Source: Gammaproteobacteria bacterium
GTDB lineage: Bacteria > Pseudomonadota > Gammaproteobacteria > Chromatiales > Chromatiaceae
Assembly: GCA_030065815.1 (NCBI GenBank)
Contig: JASJCU010000009.1
Location: 1-53,593 of the forward strand
Reading direction: 5' to 3'
Length of the DNA: 53,593 nt
Shown in pieces: positions 32,713 through 45,187 of the stretch. The notes under the pieces are model-generated. The model was not told the origin of the DNA. It saw only the letters and a program-made list of their open reading frames with translations, and did no database searches. Positions within the stretch are counted from its first letter, which is position 1. Every line of letters begins with the position of its first letter. A program made the translations under genes and the position numbers.

Positions 32713-34071
32713 TCAGCGTGTGGCATTCTCGCTGCCCACGGCGGCGGGCCACGGCTCGCCGCTGTCCGCAAAGCCCGGGATCTCCGCGGCCGGTTCGACG
32801 CTCGGGGCCGACCAGCCGAGCAGGGTGCTGGCATGCTCGCAGCGCCGTTCCAGGTCCGCGGCATCCCGCCCGCCGAGGTGGACGATGCCGAAGCGATAGC
32901 TGCCCAGCCACTTGAAGTCGCGCTGGACCTGGCTGGCGAGCTTGGGGAACTGCAGCAGCAGGCCGTCGGGGTAGGCGCGATGAAAGGCGCGCTGCTGCGC
33001 CGCCGACGGCATCGCCACAATGGCAGCCGGATCGAAGCTTCGATAGACGAAGCTGGCCGCGCACGCGGCCGTCGGCGCCGCCGTCGCCACGCTGGCCGGG
33101 TCGATGCCGTGGCTCAGTGCCAGCGCCATCTCGTGCAGGTGCTTGCCGTCGACTCGTGCGTACAGGTCGGAGAACTGGGCGGCCATGCGCGGGTTGAACT
33201 CGATGACCTTGAGCCGCCCGGAATGCTCGTCGACGACGAACTCCATGTTGAAGAAGCCGTGCGTGAAGCCGATCGCGTCGAGAAAGCGTGCGGCAATCGC
33301 CTCGGCCTCGCGCTGCAGGTGCTCGGGCAGGCGGCTCGGATAGTTCCAGCGCATGAACGCATCGGTGCCGGGGTACATGATGGCATCGACGATTCCGAGG
33401 CGGCGCACATCGCCTTCGAAACAGTAGCCATCGAGGCAGTACTGGTTGCCACGCAGGTGCTCCTCGAGCATCAGGCTGTGCGCCGTGCCGGCCGCCGGCA
33501 GGCGCTTGCGGACGACCCTCTCGAACGGTTCGACCAGATGCCGGATGATCCACAGTTCGGGGCGGCTGAAGCGCGTGTGATCGTACAGCGCCTGCTTGCT
33601 GTGCATGGTTCGGGCGAGCACCGAGAACGCGGCCTTGACGGGTTTGACGAAGGTCGGATACGAAATGCCGTCGGGGATGTCGGCGTCGTAGGCCGCGTCG
33701 AGCCGGCGAAACGGGATATTGGCCTCTGGCGCGACCCGTTCGAGGACCTCGCGCGCATGCAGTTTGTGCTGACAGGCGAGCACGGCCTCGACCGGGGTTC
33801 CGGGCCAGCCCATCTGCTCCGCCACGAGCGCCGCGCACAGTGCGCCGAACTGTTCGTGATTGCTGACCACGGCGCGCGCGCCGAGCAGTCGCGCACGCCG
33901 CGCGGCGAGGCTGCTGAAGCGTTCCATGTCGAACCACGCGAGACGCGCATTGCTCGGAAAGCTGAACAAGTCGAAGCCGGCATTCAATTGCGGCCACGAA
34001 CGCGCCAGTTTGCGCAATTCGATGCGATCCCAGTCGTAACCGAACAGCACCAGGGTCTTGTCGTGCTTCAT
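32713..34071 (-). CDS. ATP-grasp ligase of unknown substrate
   Basis: 452 residues from the ATG at 34071 (GGACAGG upstream). The central ATP-grasp region covers about residues 110-340: YPTFVKPVKAAFSV (ATP-binding Lys), LMLEEHLRGNQYCLDGYC, HGFFNMEFVV and RLKVIEFNPRMAAQFSDLY with the metal-binding Glu and Asn. An N-terminal pre-ATP-grasp domain (KTLVLFGYDWDRIELR) and a C-terminal tail complete the D-Ala-D-Ala ligase/BacD-like layout. Such enzymes join a carboxylate to an amine or thiol. It lies between two paralogous methyltransferase genes. That suggests a small tailoring pathway, but the product cannot be predicted. Confidence 0.85.
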   Translation of the reverse strand: MKHDKTLVLFGYDWDRIELRKLARSWPQLNAGFDLFSFPSNARLAWFDMERFSSLAARRARLLGARAVVSNHEQFGALCAALVAEQMGWPGTPVEAVLACQHKLHAREVLERVAPEANIPFRRLDAAYDADIPDGISYPTFVKPVKAAFSVLARTMHSKQALYDHTRFSRPELWIIRHLVEPFERVVRKRLPAAGTAHSLMLEEHLRGNQYCLDGYCFEGDVRRLGIVDAIMYPGTDAFMRWNYPSRLPEHLQREAEAIAARFLDAIGFTHGFFNMEFVVDEHSGRLKVIEFNPRMAAQFSDLYARVDGKHLHEMALALSHGIDPASVATAAPTAACAASFVYRSFDPAAIVAMPSAAQQRAFHRAYPDGLLLQFPKLASQVQRDFKWLGSYRFGIVHLGGRDAADLERRCEHASTLLGWSAPSVEPAAEIPGFADSGEPWPAAVGSENATR

Positions 34072-34626
34072 GGCCTGTCCATGACAAAGGGATTGCCCGC
34101 GTTGCCTTCGCGGCGTGGCGCCGGCGCGCCGCGCCCGACGGCCGGCAGTGCCGCCCGGCGGCATACGATGCGCTTGCGTCCAGGGGTCGTGGCGCTGATC
34201 ACTGTCGGTGCGGGCTCCTGTTATTCTTGTCTGCGATGACTGGCGTGCGGGGCCAGACGCAGCCGGCAGCCTTCCCTACAGATTACCAGATCGGGGATGC
34301 AGTTCCCGGCAGACGCCTGGATCTGTAGACCGGGTCGCGACCGGTTTCTATTGCACGTGCCATGCTTTGCTCGATGCGACGGGTATCGCATGCGTCGCGG
34401 GCGATGCCGCTGCCGGCGCCGATGCGGCGCATGCCGCGCGCTGTTCGGGCACGCTGCGGCCGGCCACGGCCGGGCCCGGCGCGGCCGCCGCGAATCGCCG
34501 GCGCCGGCGCGTCCGTGCGGTTATTGTGCGCTGCCGGCGTTTACCGCAAACTCGATGTACCGGTGCAGCGGTGAGCCGGGCGACGACGGGCCCGCCGGTC
34601 GCGCCGCGTACCGTCCCGGTGAACTG
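34072..34626. other. Intergenic region between the ATP-grasp gene and methyltransferase 2
   Basis: About 555 bases between divergent genes. Open frames here have no ribosome sites and no recognisable content. A somewhat AT-richer patch lies at 34218-34235, but I cannot define promoter boxes. Confidence 0.4.
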
Positions 34627-35304
34627 ATGATGCAGAGATTCGATGCACCAAACATGCTGGATGCGCCAGACGCGGCAAGGGCCGTCGCCAAATATCGGGG
34701 TCATGCCGACGGCTACGACGCGTCGGCGCGGCGCACGATGCGGCTGCGCCGGCGCGCCATCGCCAAGCTCGCGCTGCGGCCCGGCGATCGCGTCCTCGAT
34801 GTCGCTTCCGGCACCGGTCTGAGCTTTCCGCTGCTGCGCGACGCGGTTGGCAGCGATGGCGAGGTCATCGGCATCGACATCAGCCCGGAGATGACCAGCC
34901 AGGCGCGCGAGCGTGTCAGCGCGGCTGGATGGCGTAACGTCACGGTCCTCGAATCGCCGATCGACACGGCGCCGATCCCCGCGCCGCTCGATGCCGTGCT
35001 GTTTCACTTCACGCACGATGTCGTGCGATCGCAGCGCGCGCTCCAGCGCATCTTCTCGGCGACGGCACCGAACGCCAGGATCGCGATCGCCGGCATGAAG
35101 TACGCACCGTGGTGGATGTCGCCGGTCAACGTCATCGTGCGTGCCAAGGCGCGTCCCTACATGACCACGTTCGAAGGCCTGGACAAGCCGTGGGATCGCA
35201 TGCTCCCGCACCTCTCGGAGTACGCCTGGACCACGGCACTGTTCGGCACCTGCTACCTCGGCTGGGGTCGGGTGCGCGACAGCGCGTCTGTCGGCCGCCG
35301 CTAG
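34627..35304 (+). CDS. SAM-dependent methyltransferase 2 (class I), paralogue of the gene at 32041
   Basis: 225 residues; ATGs at 34627 and 34630 are both possible. Motif I is VLDVASGTGLSFPLL (about residues 57-71), followed by GIDISPEMTSQAR and LDAVLFHFTHDVVRSQRAL. It shares most conserved positions with methyltransferase 1. It differs in the substrate-side C-terminus (KYAPWWMSPVNVIVRAKARPYMTTFEGLDKPWDR), which suggests related but distinct acceptors. It is not EgtD: the length and motifs differ from the histidine trimethyltransferase. A hairpin (35293-35320) overlaps the stop codon. Confidence 0.82.
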   Translation: MMQRFDAPNMLDAPDAARAVAKYRGHADGYDASARRTMRLRRRAIAKLALRPGDRVLDVASGTGLSFPLLRDAVGSDGEVIGIDISPEMTSQARERVSAAGWRNVTVLESPIDTAPIPAPLDAVLFHFTHDVVRSQRALQRIFSATAPNARIAIAGMKYAPWWMSPVNVIVRAKARPYMTTFEGLDKPWDRMLPHLSEYAWTTALFGTCYLGWGRVRDSASVGRR

Positions 35305-37344: not shown

Positions 37345-39603
37345 TCAGACGACGACCTCCACCGGCGCGTCGGCGTCCGAGCGCGCCGCGACGCGACCGA
37401 TGATGACCGCGCTGGCGTAGCCGAGTTCGTGGAGCGCGTGCAGACACGGCGTGGCTGCGCTGTTCGGCACCGACGCCAACAGGCCGCCGGCGGTCTGCGG
37501 ATCGAACAGCAGCGGGTAGCGCGCGTGGCGGCTCAGTGCGTCGGCGTTGCGCACGGCGCGGCGCAGGCGCACGTTCTGCGGCTGCAGCGACGACAGGATG
37601 CCGGCGGCGACGGTCTGTTCGGCACCGTCGAGCAACGGCACGGTCGCCAGTTCGAGCGTGACGTCGGTATCCGACGCGCGGGTCATCTCGACCAGGTGCC
37701 CGAGCAGGCCGAAGCCGGTGACGTCGGTACACGCCGTCGCGCCGTGGTCGTGCAGACAGGTCGCGGCGGCCTGGTTGGACACCAGCATCGACTGGATCGC
37801 CGCGTCGACCCAGCGCCCCTTGGCCTTGCCGCGCATGTCGGCGGCGAACAGCGTGCCGGTGCCGATCGGCTTGGTCAGGATCAGGGCGTCACCCGGCTGC
37901 ATGCCGCCCTTGCGCAGCAGCGCGTCCCTGGCGATCAGGCCATTCACGGTCAGGCCGAAGGCGAGCTCGGCGCCCTCACTGGAATGGCCACCGGCGAGCA
38001 CGGCGCCGGTCGGCGCCAGCGTATCCAGCGCGCCGCTCATGACGTCAGACAGTGTCTGTTCGACGATCGCCTCGCGACCGTAGGGCACCGTCGCGATCGC
38101 CAGCGCCGACTGCGCCTCGGCGCCCATCGCGAAGATGTCGCCGAGCGCGTGGTTGGCCGCGATACGGCCGAACGTGTACGGGTCGTCGATGAACGCGCGG
38201 AAGTAGTCGACGCTCTGCACCATGACCTTGCCCGGCGGCACCTCGAAGGCCGCGGCGTCGTCGGGCGAGTCCAGGCCGATCAGCACGTCGTCGCGGCGCT
38301 GTGCCGGCAGCCGGTTGATGACCCGGCTCAGCACCGTACTGCCGACCTTGGCGCCGCAGCCGCCGCAGCGCATCGCCAGCGTCGACAGTTCGCGGATCGC
38401 GTCGGCATCGGCGATGCCGCCGAGCTGCGGTGCGCTGTCCTGTTCCATGTCCGGCAGTTCGTTGAACTTGCGCATGAAGCGGCGGTCGATCCAGTCCTTC
38501 CATTGCCACAGCAGCCGGCCCTCCCATGACCAGTCGCCGCGCGACGCCACTGCGTAGGGGTCGCCGGTGCTGATCAGGCCGAGGAAGTTCTTTTGCGGCC
38601 GGTATTGCTTGAGCGGCCGTCCGGCCGCGGCGCGGCGCAGGTTCTCGGCCAGCACCGGTCCCTGACGGACCGCGAACACGCCGGACTTGGGTCGCGGGTC
38701 CGGCATCGCGGCGACGTCGCCGGCGACGAAGACATTGGGGTGGGACACCGAGCGCAGGTCGCGGTCGACGGTGATGAAGCCGTCGTCGTCGACGGCCAAC
38801 CCCGACTCGGCCGGCCACCCCGGCGCCGCCGCGTAGGTGACCCAGAGCACGGCATCGGCGGCATGGAAATCGCCGCCGTCGACGTGGACGCCGTCCGCTG
38901 CGACACGCACCGCCCGGCTGTTCAGGTACACCGTGATGTCACGCTCGCCGAGCACGCGCGTGAAGCGGCGCCGCACGCCGGCGTTGTGCGTCGGCAGGAT
39001 CTCTGGCCCGTCGGTGAGCAGTGCGTAGTGCAGCCGGGCGCTGTCGTCGCCGCGTCCCGACAGCAGGCGGCGCAGGCGGTGCTGTGTCGACAGTGCCAGT
39101 TCGACGCCGCCGGCGCCGCCACCGACGACGACGATGCGAAACTCGCCGTGGCTGTCGGCGACGCGGGCCTGCAGCGCCTCCCAGTCGCGCAGCCAGCGAT
39201 CGATCGGCTTGACCGGGAAGGCGTGATCCAGCGCGCCCGGCACGTCGATCGTGCGCGGCCGCGAGCCGGTATTGATCGACAGCAGGTCGTAGTGCACCGG
39301 CGGACGGCCGGGCACGTTGACGGTCTTCGCGACCGGATCGATGCCGTCGACCTCGCCATGGTACAGGCGCGCGCCGGCAAACCGCGCCAGCGGGCCGAGA
39401 TCGATGTGCACCTCGTCGTGGTCGTAATGACCGGCGACATAGCCGGGCAGCATGCCCGAGTACGGTGTGTGGATGTCGCGCGTGATCAGCGTCAGGCGCA
39501 CACCGGGCATCGGTTTCATGCCGAACTTGCGCAGCACCGAGACATGCGCGTGTCCGCCGCCGACCAGGACGATGTCTTTGAGTACCGGCGTGTCAGTGTT
39601 CAT
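37345..39603 (-). CDS. senC: Flavoprotein-selenophosphate synthetase fusion (SelD domain; senC role)
   Basis: 752 residues. Residues about 8-350 are an NDH-2-like pyridine-nucleotide/FAD oxidoreductase: IVLVGGGHAHVSVLRKFG at the start, VVVGGGAGGVELAL near residue 157 and VFVAGDVAAMPD near residue 290. Residues about 400-750 are SelD, with RCGGCGAKVG placing C416 and K419 where E. coli SelD has Cys17 and Lys20, then GLDSPDDAAAF, DIFAMGAEA and GGHSSEGAE. Cysteine, not selenocysteine, is at the active site. SelD makes selenophosphate from selenide and ATP. This fusion is known from other bacteria. Its position beside senA and senB makes it the SenC of a selenoneine pathway. Confidence 0.85.
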   Translation of the reverse strand: MNTDTPVLKDIVLVGGGHAHVSVLRKFGMKPMPGVRLTLITRDIHTPYSGMLPGYVAGHYDHDEVHIDLGPLARFAGARLYHGEVDGIDPVAKTVNVPGRPPVHYDLLSINTGSRPRTIDVPGALDHAFPVKPIDRWLRDWEALQARVADSHGEFRIVVVGGGAGGVELALSTQHRLRRLLSGRGDDSARLHYALLTDGPEILPTHNAGVRRRFTRVLGERDITVYLNSRAVRVAADGVHVDGGDFHAADAVLWVTYAAAPGWPAESGLAVDDDGFITVDRDLRSVSHPNVFVAGDVAAMPDPRPKSGVFAVRQGPVLAENLRRAAAGRPLKQYRPQKNFLGLISTGDPYAVASRGDWSWEGRLLWQWKDWIDRRFMRKFNELPDMEQDSAPQLGGIADADAIRELSTLAMRCGGCGAKVGSTVLSRVINRLPAQRRDDVLIGLDSPDDAAAFEVPPGKVMVQSVDYFRAFIDDPYTFGRIAANHALGDIFAMGAEAQSALAIATVPYGREAIVEQTLSDVMSGALDTLAPTGAVLAGGHSSEGAELAFGLTVNGLIARDALLRKGGMQPGDALILTKPIGTGTLFAADMRGKAKGRWVDAAIQSMLVSNQAAATCLHDHGATACTDVTGFGLLGHLVEMTRASDTDVTLELATVPLLDGAEQTVAAGILSSLQPQNVRLRRAVRNADALSRHARYPLLFDPQTAGGLLASVPNSAATPCLHALHELGYASAVIIGRVAARSDADAPVEVVV

Positions 39604-39820
39604 GCGTCTTCCAGGTTTGCAGCAGTCATCGATCGGGCCACAGTCGATTCACGCGGCGCGCTGGTGCGGCCGGCGGCGCCCATGCTTCGATCGCTGTCGT
39701 CGCGAAAGGTTGCGTGCGCCCGGTCACCGCGGTCGGCGGCGTGACGTCGCGGGCCGCTTGCCGGCGTCGCGTTGGCTGTCGCTGTTGTCGACCCGGGCAG
39801 CATCGTGCGGCACGCGGCAA

Positions 39821-41101
39821 TCAGGTCGCGCAGGTGCGGAACCCCGCGAAGACGTCGTTGCGCTCCGGGCCGTAGTAGGTCCGCCAAGTGTTGCGGATCA
39901 TGCGGCCACGCGTGGTCCAGGCGCCGCCGCGCAGCACCTTGGTGATGCCGAACAACGGCTGCGAATAATCCTGGTACATGTCCGGCGTGAACCCGGGGTA
40001 AGGACCGAACGTGTCGGCGGTCCATTCCCAGGCGTTGCCGATCATCTGGCGGCAGCCGAACGCACTGTCGCTGTCCGGCAACGCGCCGACGGCGATCGTG
40101 CCGAGGGCGCGGCCGTCTAGATTGGCGTGCTCGGCGGTCGGCTGGGCATCGCCCCACGGATAGCGCCGCTTGCTGCGCGACAGCCCGCCATTGGCATCCG
40201 CCTGGCCGGCGGCCGCGACCTCCCACTCGGCCTCGGTCGGCAGCCGGCGGCCGGCCCAGCGGCAGTAGGCGCGCGCCTCGTGCCAGCAGACGTGGATCAC
40301 CGCGGCGTCCGCCGGCAGCGGCGTCCAGCGGTCGAATCGCCGGACCTGCCAGCCGTCCGGCGAGCGACGCCAGTAACACGGGCAGTCGAGGCCGGACGCC
40401 TGCAGCCAGGCCCGGCCGTCGTCGTCCCAGTACTGCGGGTCCTGGTAGCCGCCGGCGTCGACGAAGGCCGCGAACTCGGCGTTGCTGACCGCGGCGCGCG
40501 CTATCGCGAACGGTTCGACGTCGACCGCGTGGGCCCATTTCTCGTTGTCGAAGACGAAGCCGTCGTCCTTGCCTGCGCCGAGCAGGAAGGTGCCGCCCGG
40601 AATCTCCACGTCGCCGGGCAGGCGGCCGGTCATCAGCGCTTGCGGGACCGCGCCGATCGCCGGCGTCGGGTATTCGAGCGTCTGGCGCGTGTACGTGAAG
40701 GCCTCGGTGTGCATGTCCTCGTGATAGATCGCGTATTCGAGCAGGTAGTCGCGGCGCGCGTCCGGCCCGTCCTGTTCGACGTGCCGGCGCACCCGGTCGT
40801 GGACCTCGCGCATGTAGGCCAGGGTGTCGTCGAGGCTGCGCAGCGGAAGGTCCCAGCGGTCGTCGTGGGCGATGGTGATCGAGTCGTAGAGACTGTCGAC
40901 GCTGTCGAACACCGGGTCCATCCCGAGGTGCTGGCGCAAGATCCAGTACTCGTAGAAGTACGCGGTGTGCCCGATCTCCCAGCGCAGCGGGTTGACCGTC
41001 GGCAGCCGCGGTCCAATCAGCTGCGCGCCGTCCAGGCCGTCGATCAGCGTCAGCGTACGCCGCCGCGCGTCTTCCATGCTGTCGATGAGGAACCGGGACA
41101 T
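39821..41101 (-). CDS. senA: Selenoneine synthase-like non-haem iron enzyme (EgtB homologue)
   Basis: 426 residues. An N-terminal DinB-like domain supplies the three-histidine iron site: H45 (in EIGHTAYFYEYW), H127 and H131 (in YHEDMHTE, the HxxxHxE motif). A C-terminal formylglycine-generating-enzyme-like (SUMF1) domain runs from about 160 to the end: IPGGTFLLGAG, GRRLPTEAEWE, NAWEWTAD, LRGGAWTTR and AGFRTCAT. EgtB joins gamma-glutamylcysteine or cysteine to hercynine for ergothioneine. SenA joins a selenosugar to hercynine for selenoneine. The adjacent senB and senC homologues, and the absence of egtC, egtD and egtE here, favour SenA. Sequence alone cannot fully exclude EgtB. Confidence 0.82.
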   Translation of the reverse strand: MSRFLIDSMEDARRRTLTLIDGLDGAQLIGPRLPTVNPLRWEIGHTAYFYEYWILRQHLGMDPVFDSVDSLYDSITIAHDDRWDLPLRSLDDTLAYMREVHDRVRRHVEQDGPDARRDYLLEYAIYHEDMHTEAFTYTRQTLEYPTPAIGAVPQALMTGRLPGDVEIPGGTFLLGAGKDDGFVFDNEKWAHAVDVEPFAIARAAVSNAEFAAFVDAGGYQDPQYWDDDGRAWLQASGLDCPCYWRRSPDGWQVRRFDRWTPLPADAAVIHVCWHEARAYCRWAGRRLPTEAEWEVAAAGQADANGGLSRSKRRYPWGDAQPTAEHANLDGRALGTIAVGALPDSDSAFGCRQMIGNAWEWTADTFGPYPGFTPDMYQDYSQPLFGITKVLRGGAWTTRGRMIRNTWRTYYGPERNDVFAGFRTCAT

Positions 41102-41162
41102 GCGAACGTGACCGAGGAATTCACTTCGGTGCTATGGTCGCAGGGATGCGGCGCAATGTCAC

Positions 41163-42140
41163 ATGAACATCAGACTGGTCACGCCGGCACCGCGCGGATC
41201 GCGCGCCGGCAACCGCGCCTCGGCAAACCGCTGGGCGGCGATCCTGCGTCGCCTCGGTCATCGCGTGACCGTGTCGACCGCGTACGCCGGCGAACCGGCC
41301 GACCTGATGGTCGCGCTGCACGCCTGGCGCAGCGCCGCTGCGATCGCCGCGTTCGCCGCGGCGTATCCGCAGCGTCCACTGGTCGTCGTGCTGACCGGGA
41401 CCGACGCCTACCGCTTCATCCACAGCGACCGCGACACGACGCTGGCGTCGCTCGACGCCGCCGACCATATCGTCGGCCTGCACCCGCTGGTCGGCAACGT
41501 GCTGCCGGCGCGACTGCGCCCGAGGCTGCGCGCGATCATCCAGTCGGCGAGGCCACTGGCGACGCGGCGACCGGCGCGCCGCCACTTCCGGGTCTGCTTC
41601 GCCGGCCACCTGCGCGACGAGAAGGACCCGCTGCGCCCGGCGTACGCGGTGCGCGATCTGCCGGCGCACAGCCGGATCCGCGTCGATGCCTACGGTGGCG
41701 CGCATACCGAGGACTGGGCCGCGGCGGCGCGCGACGAGATGGCGATCAACCCGCGCTACCGCTGGCACGGCGAGATCGCGCATGCCGAGCTGCGGCGCGT
41801 GTACACGCGCTCGCACGTCCTGGTCCTGCCATCGGTAATGGAGGGTGGCGCCAACGTGATCTCCGAGGCGGTGATGGCCGGACTGCCGGTGATCGCGTCC
41901 GACATCGAGGGCTCGGTCGGGCTGCTCGGCGACGATTACCCGGGTTACTACCCGGTACAGGATACGGCCGCGCTGCGCGACCGGCTGCTGAGGGCCGAGG
42001 CCGACCCGCGCTACTACGCCGCGCTCGACGCCGCCTGCAACGCGCGCCGCCATCTGTTCACGCCGCAGCAGGAACACGCCGGCTGGCAACGTCTGCTCGC
42101 CGACATCGAGGCGGCGAATCCGGGGCCTGGCAGCCCGTGA
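41163..42140 (+). CDS. senB: Selenosugar synthase-like glycosyltransferase (TIGR04348 family)
   Basis: 325 residues, divergent from senA with 61 bases between start codons. GT-B fold of the GT4 type: MNIRLVTPAPRGSRAGNRASA at the N-terminus (typical of the TIGR04348 family), HAWRSAAAI, LTGTDAYRFI, then CFAGHLRDEKDPLRPAYA in the nucleotide-sugar domain and the EX7E-like segment MEGGANVISEAVMAGLPVIAS near residue 225. In the known pathway SenB uses UDP-N-acetylglucosamine and selenophosphate to make a 1-seleno-sugar, forming the carbon-selenium bond. Selenophosphate would come from the SelD fusion. The assignment rests on family recall plus gene order. Confidence 0.82.
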   Translation: MNIRLVTPAPRGSRAGNRASANRWAAILRRLGHRVTVSTAYAGEPADLMVALHAWRSAAAIAAFAAAYPQRPLVVVLTGTDAYRFIHSDRDTTLASLDAADHIVGLHPLVGNVLPARLRPRLRAIIQSARPLATRRPARRHFRVCFAGHLRDEKDPLRPAYAVRDLPAHSRIRVDAYGGAHTEDWAAAARDEMAINPRYRWHGEIAHAELRRVYTRSHVLVLPSVMEGGANVISEAVMAGLPVIASDIEGSVGLLGDDYPGYYPVQDTAALRDRLLRAEADPRYYAALDAACNARRHLFTPQQEHAGWQRLLADIEAANPGPGSP

Positions 42141-42295: not shown

Positions 42296-43072
42296 TCAGG
42301 CGGTGTAGAGGCCGCGGATATCCAACAGGCGCTGCGCGTAGCGCGTATCCACCTCGCGCGCGGCGCGCCGGAAATGGCCCCGCAAGGCCGGCTTCAGGTG
42401 GGCGAGCACGGCCTTGCCGGGCAGCGTCTTGAGCGCCGCGAAGATCGCCAGCGCGTAGGTGATGTCGTGTTGCGAGACGAACGCCTGACGGCGGACCACC
42501 GGGCCGCCGCAGCAGCCGCCGCGCGGCAGCACCAGCGCGGTGTTGGCGAACATCAGCCCGAAGCCGAGGAATACCGCGAGGATCTCGGTGGCCTGCGGCC
42601 AGTTGTCGACACCGCCCGGCGGCGGCTCGTCGGCCGACGTGCCGAGGTAATGGGCGAGGGTATGGGCGAACACCGCGATCATCGCCTCGGGGTTGTTGAC
42701 GGACTGGGGGTCGTAGCCGACCGTCAGTGACGCCGGTGCGGTTTCGGCGGCCGCGGCGCGCGACCCGCGCCGCCCGCCGGCGACGCGCACCTCGGCCGCG
42801 GTCTCCAGCGTGCAGCTGTCGGCAGGCAGCAGGCGCAGCGGCCAGTGCTGCATGCCCGCGTAGGCGACCACGCGATCGAAGATCAGCTGCGCCATGTCCT
42901 GGGCGCTGTCTGCGCGGCCCGGAAAGTGGTCGTTGGACGGCGTCACCAGCACGGTCTCGTCGCGGAACATCTGCGCATCGAAGTTGCGCGCGGCCCACGC
43001 GAACACGTCGAACATCCAGCCGGCATAGGCGGCATCGAGCAGTGGGCGGCGATCCAGCAGGCGAAGCAGCAT
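42296..43072 (-). CDS. Conserved-looking protein of unknown function
   Basis: 258 residues from the ATG at 43072, which has AGAGGA 8 bases upstream; 11 further codons upstream are open but have no site. I do not recognise the family. It begins LLRLLDRRPLLDAAYAGWM, has PSNDHFPGRADSAQDMAQL, a basic turn (VAGGRRGSRAA), VFAHTLAHYLG near residue 155 (two His four apart), and a Cys pair in LPRGGCCGGPVV near 200. Mostly hydrophilic, no signal peptide or clear transmembrane span. Its convergent position 155 bases from senB does not prove a link to selenium. Confidence 0.7.
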   Translation of the reverse strand: MLLRLLDRRPLLDAAYAGWMFDVFAWAARNFDAQMFRDETVLVTPSNDHFPGRADSAQDMAQLIFDRVVAYAGMQHWPLRLLPADSCTLETAAEVRVAGGRRGSRAAAAETAPASLTVGYDPQSVNNPEAMIAVFAHTLAHYLGTSADEPPPGGVDNWPQATEILAVFLGFGLMFANTALVLPRGGCCGGPVVRRQAFVSQHDITYALAIFAALKTLPGKAVLAHLKPALRGHFRRAAREVDTRYAQRLLDIRGLYTA

Positions 43073-43610
43073 CGGGCAATCCTCTTTGGTATCCGCCCGC
43101 TGCATCGCGGGCGGGCAGCGGTTGCTGACCGTGTCCCGGGCCGGGGCACACGCGCTGCGGAATTATGCAGCGAAAGGCGGCGTCGCGCATGGTGCGTCGA
43201 GCGGCGCATGGGCGGCCCCACTCGGCCGCAGTGTGATGCGGGAGGGTTTCGCTCGGACGGAGCGGCGTACGCGCGCCGCGCTGTTGCGTCGTTCGAATCG
43301 TGCGACTTTCTATTGGCGTCGGGTGCATCCTCAGCCCTGTCGCTGGCATCGACGACGGCTTGTTCACGGCCGGCCGCGGCGCGGCGCCGGCGCAGCCAGG
43401 TCGGGCAGACGACGCCGCTGGCTTGCATCGTCGGCCGCTGGTTTCCTGCTGCATCGGCGACATAAGTTCCTTTTACCCAAAAATCTACAGGGTTTTTGAC
43501 TTCCTCGTCGTACGTCTTGATACTCAGCGGAAACGCACGCGGTCCAGCGACCCGGCGCCCTTGCCGGGATCTGCGGAGACCGTATCGACACACAGCAACA
43601 GGAGGAGTCC
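43073..43610. other. soxA upstream region
   Basis: About 540 bases without a gene. The 5' half is GC-rich and featureless. The 3' part turns AT-rich near 43465 and contains the predicted promoter at 43496-43524. Confidence 0.5.
43496..43524 (+). promoter_or_regulatory. Predicted sigma-70 promoter of soxAX
   Basis: TTGACT (43496-43501) and GATACT (43519-43524) with a 17-base spacer. Transcription would start near 43531, leaving a leader of about 80 bases. Confidence 0.5.
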
Positions 43611-44459
43611 ATGCTTTACAAAGCCGCATTCGCCGTGCCTCTGGCATTGGCGATCGGAGCGTCTTACGCCGCCGATCGCTTTGCCGACCAGGCGCCCGAA
43701 GAGATCCTGCAGACCCTGATCGACGAGTCCGGGTCCGCGTACCTCAACCAGAGCCCGCAGAACCGCCAGATGATGCCGGACAACCCGGCGTACTGGGTCG
43801 CGGAGGAAGGCGAGGAGCTGTTCAAGACACCGCGCGGTCCAAAGAACGCGTCGCTCGAGGGCTGCGATTTCGGTAAAGGGCCGGGCGTCGTCGAGGGCGC
43901 CTACGTCGAGATGCCGCGCTACTTCGCCGATACCGGCAAGGTCATGGACCTCGAGACCCGCCTGGTCCACTGCATGACGACGCTACAGGGCTTCGCCAAG
44001 GACGATCCGGCGGTCAAGAAACGCCACGGGTCGGGTTCCGACATGATGAAACTGCAGACCTACATCGCAATGCAGTCGAACGGCCTGCCGTGGAATCCGT
44101 CGCTCGACCATCCTATGGAGAAGGCCATGCGCGACGCCGGCGAGGTGCTGTTCTATCGCCGCGCCGGACCGATGGACTTCAGCTGCAATACCTGCCACGG
44201 CGTGACCGGTCAGCGCATCCGCGCGTCGGTACTGCCGAATATCAACGAGCCGCACGAGTGGAGCAAGGCCATTTCCTGGCCGGCCGAGCGCGCCGGACAC
44301 CAGAACGTACGCAGTACGCAGCACCGCCTCCGCGGTTGCCTGTGGCAGATGCGCCACCCGGGGATCAACGCCGGATCCGACGCATCGATTGCGCTGCTGT
44401 CGTACTGGACCGATGCCGCGCGGGGACAGCCCGCAATCCTGCCTGATCTGAAGCGCTGA
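43611..44459 (+). CDS. soxA: SoxA, haem c-containing subunit of the SoxAX thiosulfate-oxidising cytochrome
   Basis: 282 residues with AGGAGGAG upstream. Signal peptide at residues 1-20 (AAFAVPLALAIGASYAA). Only one haem motif is present, CNTCH (in DFSCNTCHGV, near residue 195). The N-terminal domain keeps two lone cysteines (EGCDFG and VHCMTTL) in place of a second CxxCH, as in single-haem SoxA proteins. RGCLWQMRHP near residue 245 carries the cysteine that becomes the active-site haem ligand. SoxAX attaches thiosulfate to SoxYZ in the periplasm. soxYZ and soxB are not in the window, as in purple sulfur bacteria where soxAX stands apart. Confidence 0.93.
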   Translation: MLYKAAFAVPLALAIGASYAADRFADQAPEEILQTLIDESGSAYLNQSPQNRQMMPDNPAYWVAEEGEELFKTPRGPKNASLEGCDFGKGPGVVEGAYVEMPRYFADTGKVMDLETRLVHCMTTLQGFAKDDPAVKKRHGSGSDMMKLQTYIAMQSNGLPWNPSLDHPMEKAMRDAGEVLFYRRAGPMDFSCNTCHGVTGQRIRASVLPNINEPHEWSKAISWPAERAGHQNVRSTQHRLRGCLWQMRHPGINAGSDASIALLSYWTDAARGQPAILPDLKR

Positions 44460-44485
44460 TTGCCGAGCCGAAGGGGAAGAAAACC

Positions 44486-45187
44486 ATGTTGAAAAGAACC
44501 ACGATTGCTGCCGCCGGCGCAATCACTGCGATGGCCCTGCTGACTGCGGGCTGCACGACCAACGCCGCGGAACAGACCGCAAAAGGCGGTGGCGATTACG
44601 CGAAGATGTCGCCGGACGCATTGGCCGAGCACCTGATCTTCGAGACCAAGAGCTTCAAGCTCGACATGCCCGTCCAGGAGGGCGGTACCGCCGAAGCACG
44701 CCTGAAGCAGGACGAGGTGCAAGTACTCTGCTCGAAGCTGCGCGGTAAACCGGTCGACAGCGAGACCGCCGCCAAGGTCACGGCGATGTCGCGCGAGACC
44801 ATCAAGTATCCGGCAGGGGGCATCAAGCTCGGTGACTGGAAGATCGGACGCCAACTGGCGTGGTCTGGCTTCGGCTACCGTGTCGGGCACCGCAATGACG
44901 ACCACAGCAAAGCGAAGAACGGCCCCGGTGGCAACTGCTACAACTGTCACCAGCTGGCCACCGACCGCACCGGCGGGACCATCGGCCCGCCGCTGACCGG
45001 CTACGGCAAGCTGCGCGGCAGCAGTGACGCGATCCTCAAGTACACATACGACGTCATCTACAACCCGCACGCGTACTTCGCGTGTACCCACATGCCGCGT
45101 ATCGGTGCGAAGGGTCTGCTGACCGAAGAACAGATCAGCCACGTCATGGCCTACCTGTTCGATCCGGAGTCGCCGGTCAACAAGTAA
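44486..45187 (+). CDS. soxX: SoxX, monohaem cytochrome c subunit with lipoprotein-type N-terminus
   Basis: 233 residues, 26 bases after soxA, AGGGGAAG upstream. The N-terminus TAMALLTAGCTTN is a lipobox, so the mature protein may begin with a lipid-anchored Cys; many SoxX proteins are soluble. A long N-terminal part (about residues 30-145) precedes the cytochrome domain with GGNCYNCHQ (CxxCH), TIGPPLTGYGKL and the Met-ligand region ACTHMPRIG. It forms the heterodimer with SoxA and passes electrons onward. Longer than minimal SoxX but in the range of large forms. Confidence 0.92.
   Translation: MLKRTTIAAAGAITAMALLTAGCTTNAAEQTAKGGGDYAKMSPDALAEHLIFETKSFKLDMPVQEGGTAEARLKQDEVQVLCSKLRGKPVDSETAAKVTAMSRETIKYPAGGIKLGDWKIGRQLAWSGFGYRVGHRNDDHSKAKNGPGGNCYNCHQLATDRTGGTIGPPLTGYGKLRGSSDAILKYTYDVIYNPHAYFACTHMPRIGAKGLLTEEQISHVMAYLFDPESPVNK

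Follow-up and report, generated by a model that had tools for sequence, protein, structure and literature searches.

We describe a cluster of three genes, senC, senA and senB, located at positions 37345-42140 of a 53,593-nucleotide stretch of DNA (hereafter the window; contig JASJCU010000009.1 of assembly GCA_030065815.1) from a gammaproteobacterium of the family Chromatiaceae. The cluster very probably encodes a selenoneine pathway (we put this at about 0.86), with reactions and product predicted from characterised homologues, and adds a further, intact example of the recently described selenoneine gene set, close to clusters found in many bacteria. In this pathway the enzymes act in the order SenC-SenB-SenA, on hercynine (PMC9814287). 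Accordingly ordered here, SenC would turn selenium into selenophosphate and SenB would replace the UDP of a UDP-sugar by selenium, yielding a selenosugar. SenA would then couple the selenium of this sugar to hercynine by means of a three-histidine iron centre and oxygen, and subsequent loss of the sugar would give selenoneine. The hercynine would most likely be supplied via an egtD gene that fell into an assembly gap, or else be taken up. The region is organised as follows.

37345-39603, minus strand: senC, 752-amino-acid oxidoreductase-SelD fusion (NCBIfam and Pfam matches)
39604-39820, minus strand: senA-senC gap of 217 bp, site of egtD in three sister loci (L031, L033 and L112/L152)
39821-41101, minus strand: senA, 426-amino-acid predicted selenoneine synthase with DinB_2 and FGE-sulfatase domains (NCBIfam, Pfam, tree and residues)
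41102-41162, no strand assigned: divergent senA/senB intergenic region of 61 bp, candidate two-way promoter
41163-42140, plus strand: senB, 325-amino-acid predicted Se-glycosyltransferase (selenosugar synthase; TIGR04348 and alignment)

An intact and conserved gene set

An earlier note on this DNA had recognised the sen gene set, and indeed SenA, SenB and SenC each pass the curated NCBIfam cut-offs. All three genes are intact open frames. Comparison with three relatives gave dN values of 0.11-0.15 and dS values of 0.58-1.13; dN lies far below dS in senA, senB and senC, which indicates purifying selection. Homologues of senA and senB are co-located in 67 loci, so that chance adjacency is excluded. 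These loci include the window itself and three second copies (L026, L027 and L028, of L056, L041 and L061, respectively); most were drawn from the top 80 among 334 relatives of the window SenB, and the sample therefore leans to the window's kind.

SenC scored 489 bits with TIGR03169 (cut-off 310) and 307 bits with the SelD model TIGR00476 (cut-off 125), and contains the Pfam domains PF07992, PF00586 and PF02769. Residues 10-380 correspond to a pyridine-nucleotide-disulfide oxidoreductase and residues 411-716 to the selenide, water dikinase SelD. A CGGCGAK motif is present, which we take to be the Cys/Lys pair of SelD. The genome also carries mnmH (347 bits, cut-off 219.75), while selA gave no match in it, and SenC may therefore feed tRNA selenation as well. 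A search for a second SelD, which covered the initial 20 kb of the 40-kb contig that carries mnmH, found none.

SenB scored 416 bits with TIGR04348 (cut-off 300) and matches the Pfam glycosyltransferase group 1 family. For the V. paradoxus enzyme, PMC10891094 gives Lys158 as catalytic and N20, T23 and E231 as donor-site residues. In the alignment, N17, K154 and E227 of the window SenB (residue numbers counted by hand) correspond to N20, K158 and E231, whereas S20 replaces T23 and the motif EGGAHV reads EGGANV. The window thus shares with the V. paradoxus sen cluster the same three protein families and retains the catalytic residues of SenB.

The iron enzyme is probably of the SenA type

The window SenA scored 510 bits with NF041186 (cut-off 420) and 83.8 with the TIGR04373 signature (cut-off 71); at E 1e-90 the SenA model has a single match in the genome, the window's own. 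The three histidines H45, H127 and H131 are retained, as the earlier note had said of an EgtB-like enzyme with an intact three-His site. We take them to be the iron ligands, their role being carried over from EgtB, and likewise assume that EgtB numbering of iron ligands and substrate pocket applies to SenA. Other sites noted in the window protein are M130, Y376, Y379, T408 and Y409.

Since fold and iron site are common to both families, the enzyme could in principle be an EgtB that makes ergothioneine from a sulfur donor and stands beside SelD and SenB by accident. It does score 328.6 bits with the EgtB model TIGR03440, and in a phmmer search of the PDB the EgtB of M. thermoresistibile (261.4 bits) outranks the V. 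paradoxus SenA (247 bits). The TIGR03440 score, however, is below the cut-off of 360. At EgtB position 137, Met is present in 83/83 SenA/OvsA rows (75 distinct), compared with Gln in 14/14 and Met in 0/14 EgtB rows. Homologues of the window enzyme are, moreover, linked to senB across many genomes. A phylogeny against EgtB and SenA references, proposed in the earlier note, was calculated from 97 rows (89 different). The 14 EgtB rows were separated from the SenA/OvsA rows by a branch with 98% support in the Shimodaira-Hasegawa-like approximate likelihood ratio test, and a single clade of window and EgtB was rejected by the approximately unbiased (AU) test (p-AU 0.0123). By score, tree, AU test and position 137, EgtB identity was rejected; we give it next to no weight. 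The window SenA instead groups with those of L031, L032, L033 and L112 (100%), nested in the larger SenA set.

Repeats or partial views of other loci (L001, L009-L016, L025-L028 and L035) and fragments (two of L096, and L108) were left out of the tree. L105, which lacks its C-terminus, and L119, a copy of the window, were also removed, and the OvsA chain 8ux5 was replaced by L083. The proteins of L134-L140, which we named EgtB, fall below the cut-off of the SenA model and were placed with EgtB in the tree.

A second candidate for the family is OvsA. In ovoselenol synthesis, which the earlier note had left out of account, histidine is the acceptor to which OvsA couples the selenosugar, and the product is finished by a methyltransferase, so that hercynine would not be needed. 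Ovoselenol is treated in PMC13188914 and PMC12631010. Several observations weigh against a selenoneine-forming SenA in the window. The phmmer search ranks OvsA on top (319.5 and 313.1 bits), and the better placing of the M. thermoresistibile EgtB was mentioned above. The alignment with the V. paradoxus SenA is split in two by a part of the window protein that has no match, and the Asn of the V. paradoxus enzyme at EgtB position 414 is Thr in the window. A single clade of window and OvsA, though disfavoured (log-likelihood 26 lower), survives the AU test at the 0.05 level (p-AU 0.064). Regarding hercynine, searches of the genome that holds the window gave no EgtD with either TIGR03438 or PF10017, and senA and senC are separated by a gap of 217 bp where close sisters hold egtD. 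Three further points would suit an OvsA. The genome-encoded OvsA of Vreelandella utahensis (L083) passes NF041186 (427.6 over 420), so the SenA model alone cannot separate SenA from OvsA. A class I methyltransferase gene is located at 34702-35304, and a second methyltransferase near 31.9-32.7 kb (by frame reading only).

The active-site letters decide between the two. At EgtB positions 380, 414 and 415 the window has Y/T/Y (Y379, T408 and Y409) and the V. paradoxus SenA Y/N/F, compared with M/Q/A in OvsA, for which two rows were available. Y379 and Y409 match the SenA rows, M/Q/A is not present in the window, and Thr at position 414 is found in 17/83 SenA/OvsA rows. The top-scoring OvsA chain, 8ux5, itself has Y/N/F, compared with M/Q/A in 8u41 and in L083. 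Since the L083 protein is identical to the printed stretch of 8ux5 at 430/441 residues (97.5%), these letters suggest an engineered origin for 8ux5. The TIGR04373 signature, passed by the window protein, fails in both OvsA-type rows (44.4 and 51). The best tree places the window apart from OvsA, and SenA without OvsA as one clade gave p-AU 0.506. Sister loci with the same pocket letters have egtD adjoining senA, and at E 1e-10 the other loci fetched by then contain no homologue of either window methyltransferase. On its active-site letters, the TIGR04373 score and the sister loci with egtD, the window enzyme is predicted to be of the SenA type rather than an OvsA; ovoselenol synthesis by this cluster is very unlikely. 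Automated annotation via NF041186 may label OvsA proteins as SenA.

Hercynine supply

The negative EgtD search was made in an assembly that is 98.87% complete and consists of 172 contigs; PF10017, as a control, also matches in E. coli above Pfam's low cut-off. In three of the four nearest loci (L031, L033 and L112/L152) the senA-senC interval holds egtD, although split into two overlapping frames in L033. This placement ties the SenA subclade of the window to hercynine. L032 likewise lacks egtD at this site, and its genome gave no EgtD match; its gap starts with ~20 codons that resemble, by eye only, the start of EgtD. No egtD remnant was found in the window, where a tblastn search with the EgtD of the L031 genome gave a best E value of 2.8, outside the gap.

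EgtD was further surveyed in 83 SenB-bearing genomes (7 of 11, plus batches of 49 and 27, the latter two of unstated completeness). It was present in 49/58 genomes with a complete SenA-type row, in 0/2 with an OvsA-type row and in 10/23 without a complete row. A weak partial PF10017 match in G079 (Cocleimonas; E 5.3e-6) was set aside in the OvsA count and scored as no EgtD; every genome scored as EgtD-positive has a match of E 6.2e-43 or better.

In the genus of the window, egtD has a typical position. It lies near the rnf genes in all five genus mates checked (G002, G003, G005, G006 and G008) and follows metG in the four of these with metG on the stretch; G004 and G007 also have EgtD. The window's own genome breaks at this site: contig C74 stops 2.5 kb past metG, and contig C43 stops inside an rnfC that shares 76% identity with its G003 counterpart. 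Another rnfC, 49% identical, is located elsewhere on C74. The 2.5 kb at the end of C74 match genus mate G008 (46% over 586 residues and 75% over 132), where egtD-egtB lies ~1.8 kb beyond the point at which C74 stops. As both contigs end at the site and the flank matches G008, the missing EgtD is best explained, we infer, by an assembly gap at metG-rnf, and its absence is unproven. For the same reason, the argument that a genome without EgtD does not make selenoneine was set aside as unproven.

True loss of egtD happens too, since in G001 metG and rnf share a contig, the stretch that separates them lacks egtD, and the rest of the genome has no EgtD either. A SenA-type enzyme without its own egtD, which would use scavenged hercynine or another histidine derivative, would be in keeping with G001, with the egtD-less senA-senC gaps of the window and L032, and with the L032 genome. 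It is nevertheless quite unlikely for the window, because the flank past metG matches that of G008, which leads to egtD-egtB, the gap is bounded by a contig end towards rnf as well, and the window and L032 share a residue that differs from L031, L033 and L112 at only one SenA site (EgtB position 323). A single such site does not point to an altered acceptor pocket. More specifically, it is unlikely, though somewhat conceivable, that the SenA of the subclade with Thr-414 has become uncoupled from a lost egtD and uses scavenged hercynine or a different histidine derivative. If this were true, the cluster would have lost the egtD between senA and senC and would now make a selenium compound from a scavenged or other substrate.

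Divergent layout and spread of the cluster

The earlier note had correctly described senA and senB as divergent rather than in one operon. The idea that such a layout is unusual was rejected: both genes are divergent in 66 of the 67 loci, and the only non-divergent locus is that of ovsA in Vreelandella utahensis. In L051 and L057, senA and senB are 0.7 and 3 kb apart. The intergenic region measures 61 bp in L031, L032 and L033 and 62 bp in L152, and blocks resembling TATGGTCGCAGG and TGTCAC are common to the nearest relatives (by eye). The 61-bp region is a candidate two-way promoter.

SenA above the cut-off was found in 23/369 genomes from the class and SenB at E 1e-30 in 7/56 genomes, the window's own being included in both counts. 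The window SenB is closer to the SenB of L031, L032, L033 and L152 (78-82% identical) than to that of genus mates (59-68%); L152 belongs to another family. This suggests that the sen cluster moved by transfer; losses could explain the pattern too.

Comparison with known and related loci

With the V. paradoxus SenA, the window enzyme shares the iron site as well as Met-130, Tyr-376 and Tyr-379, and differs in the extra stretch of the alignment and in Thr for Asn at EgtB 414. The closest likeness is to L031, L032, L033 and L112/L152, where senA and senB diverge over 61-62 bp, senC is located downstream of senA and the proteins are 78-84% identical; the difference is egtD, present between senA and senC in L031, L033 and L112/L152 but not in the window or L032. 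In the ovs locus of Vreelandella utahensis, a homologue of the window's iron enzyme is accompanied by genes of the SenB and SenC types. The locus differs in the M/Q/A pocket of OvsA and the non-divergent ovsA, and EgtD was not found in that genome. EgtB (M. thermoresistibile 4x8b; 8qf6) has the fold family and iron ligands in common with the window SenA, but forms a separate clade and has Gln, not Met, at position 137.

SenB and SenC also occur without a SenA/OvsA match, in L087, L089, L090, L091, L093, L094, L098, L100, L101, L102, L104, L106, L107, L109 and L110, where flanks of ~6-8 kb a side were covered (4-5 kb in L094). All 15 loci carry homologues of a putative selenate ABC transporter; that of L102, the only one scanned, matches TIGR04553 (431.6 bits). 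EgtD gave no match in 10 of the 15 genomes. These loci might make another selenometabolite or put the selenosugar to a different use. In L087, L089, L091, L093, L094 and L098, genes for a Mo-hydroxylase-like large subunit and an amidohydrolase adjoin senB. In L098, the one scanned, the NCBIfam matches of the Mo-hydroxylase-like subunit are all below cut-off and the amidohydrolase matches NF006689 (405 over 371). This pair of genes beside senB may indicate that a Mo enzyme uses selenium. In Halochromatium glycolicum (L038; 5614-6894, 3495-5906), senC is divergent from senB; a search limited to the locus gave no senA match, and the genome has EgtD.

Genes beside the cluster

Genes for soxA and soxX (NCBIfam) are located at 43611-45187, beside the sen cluster, which fits the sulfur oxidiser that the earlier note had thought probable. 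A 269-amino-acid protein is encoded at 42296-43105 on the minus strand, convergent with senB. It has no NCBIfam or Pfam match at E 0.001, nor did the other loci fetched by then yield a homologue at E 1e-10. An ATP-grasp gene is located at 32713-34164 (minus strand), ~3 kb from senC. A 70% homologue of it directly adjoins senB in a single genus mate, G005 (L028/L061), for which common genus synteny suffices as explanation, and a pathway role was set aside.

Implications

For the enzyme families, three pocket residues tell SenA from OvsA although NF041186 accepts an OvsA, and the change from Gln to Met separates both SenA and OvsA from the EgtB rows examined. The variable presence of egtD between senA and senC offers an easy comparative handle on hercynine supply. 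For the organism, the cluster extends the list of expected selenoneine producers to include a probable sulfur oxidiser.

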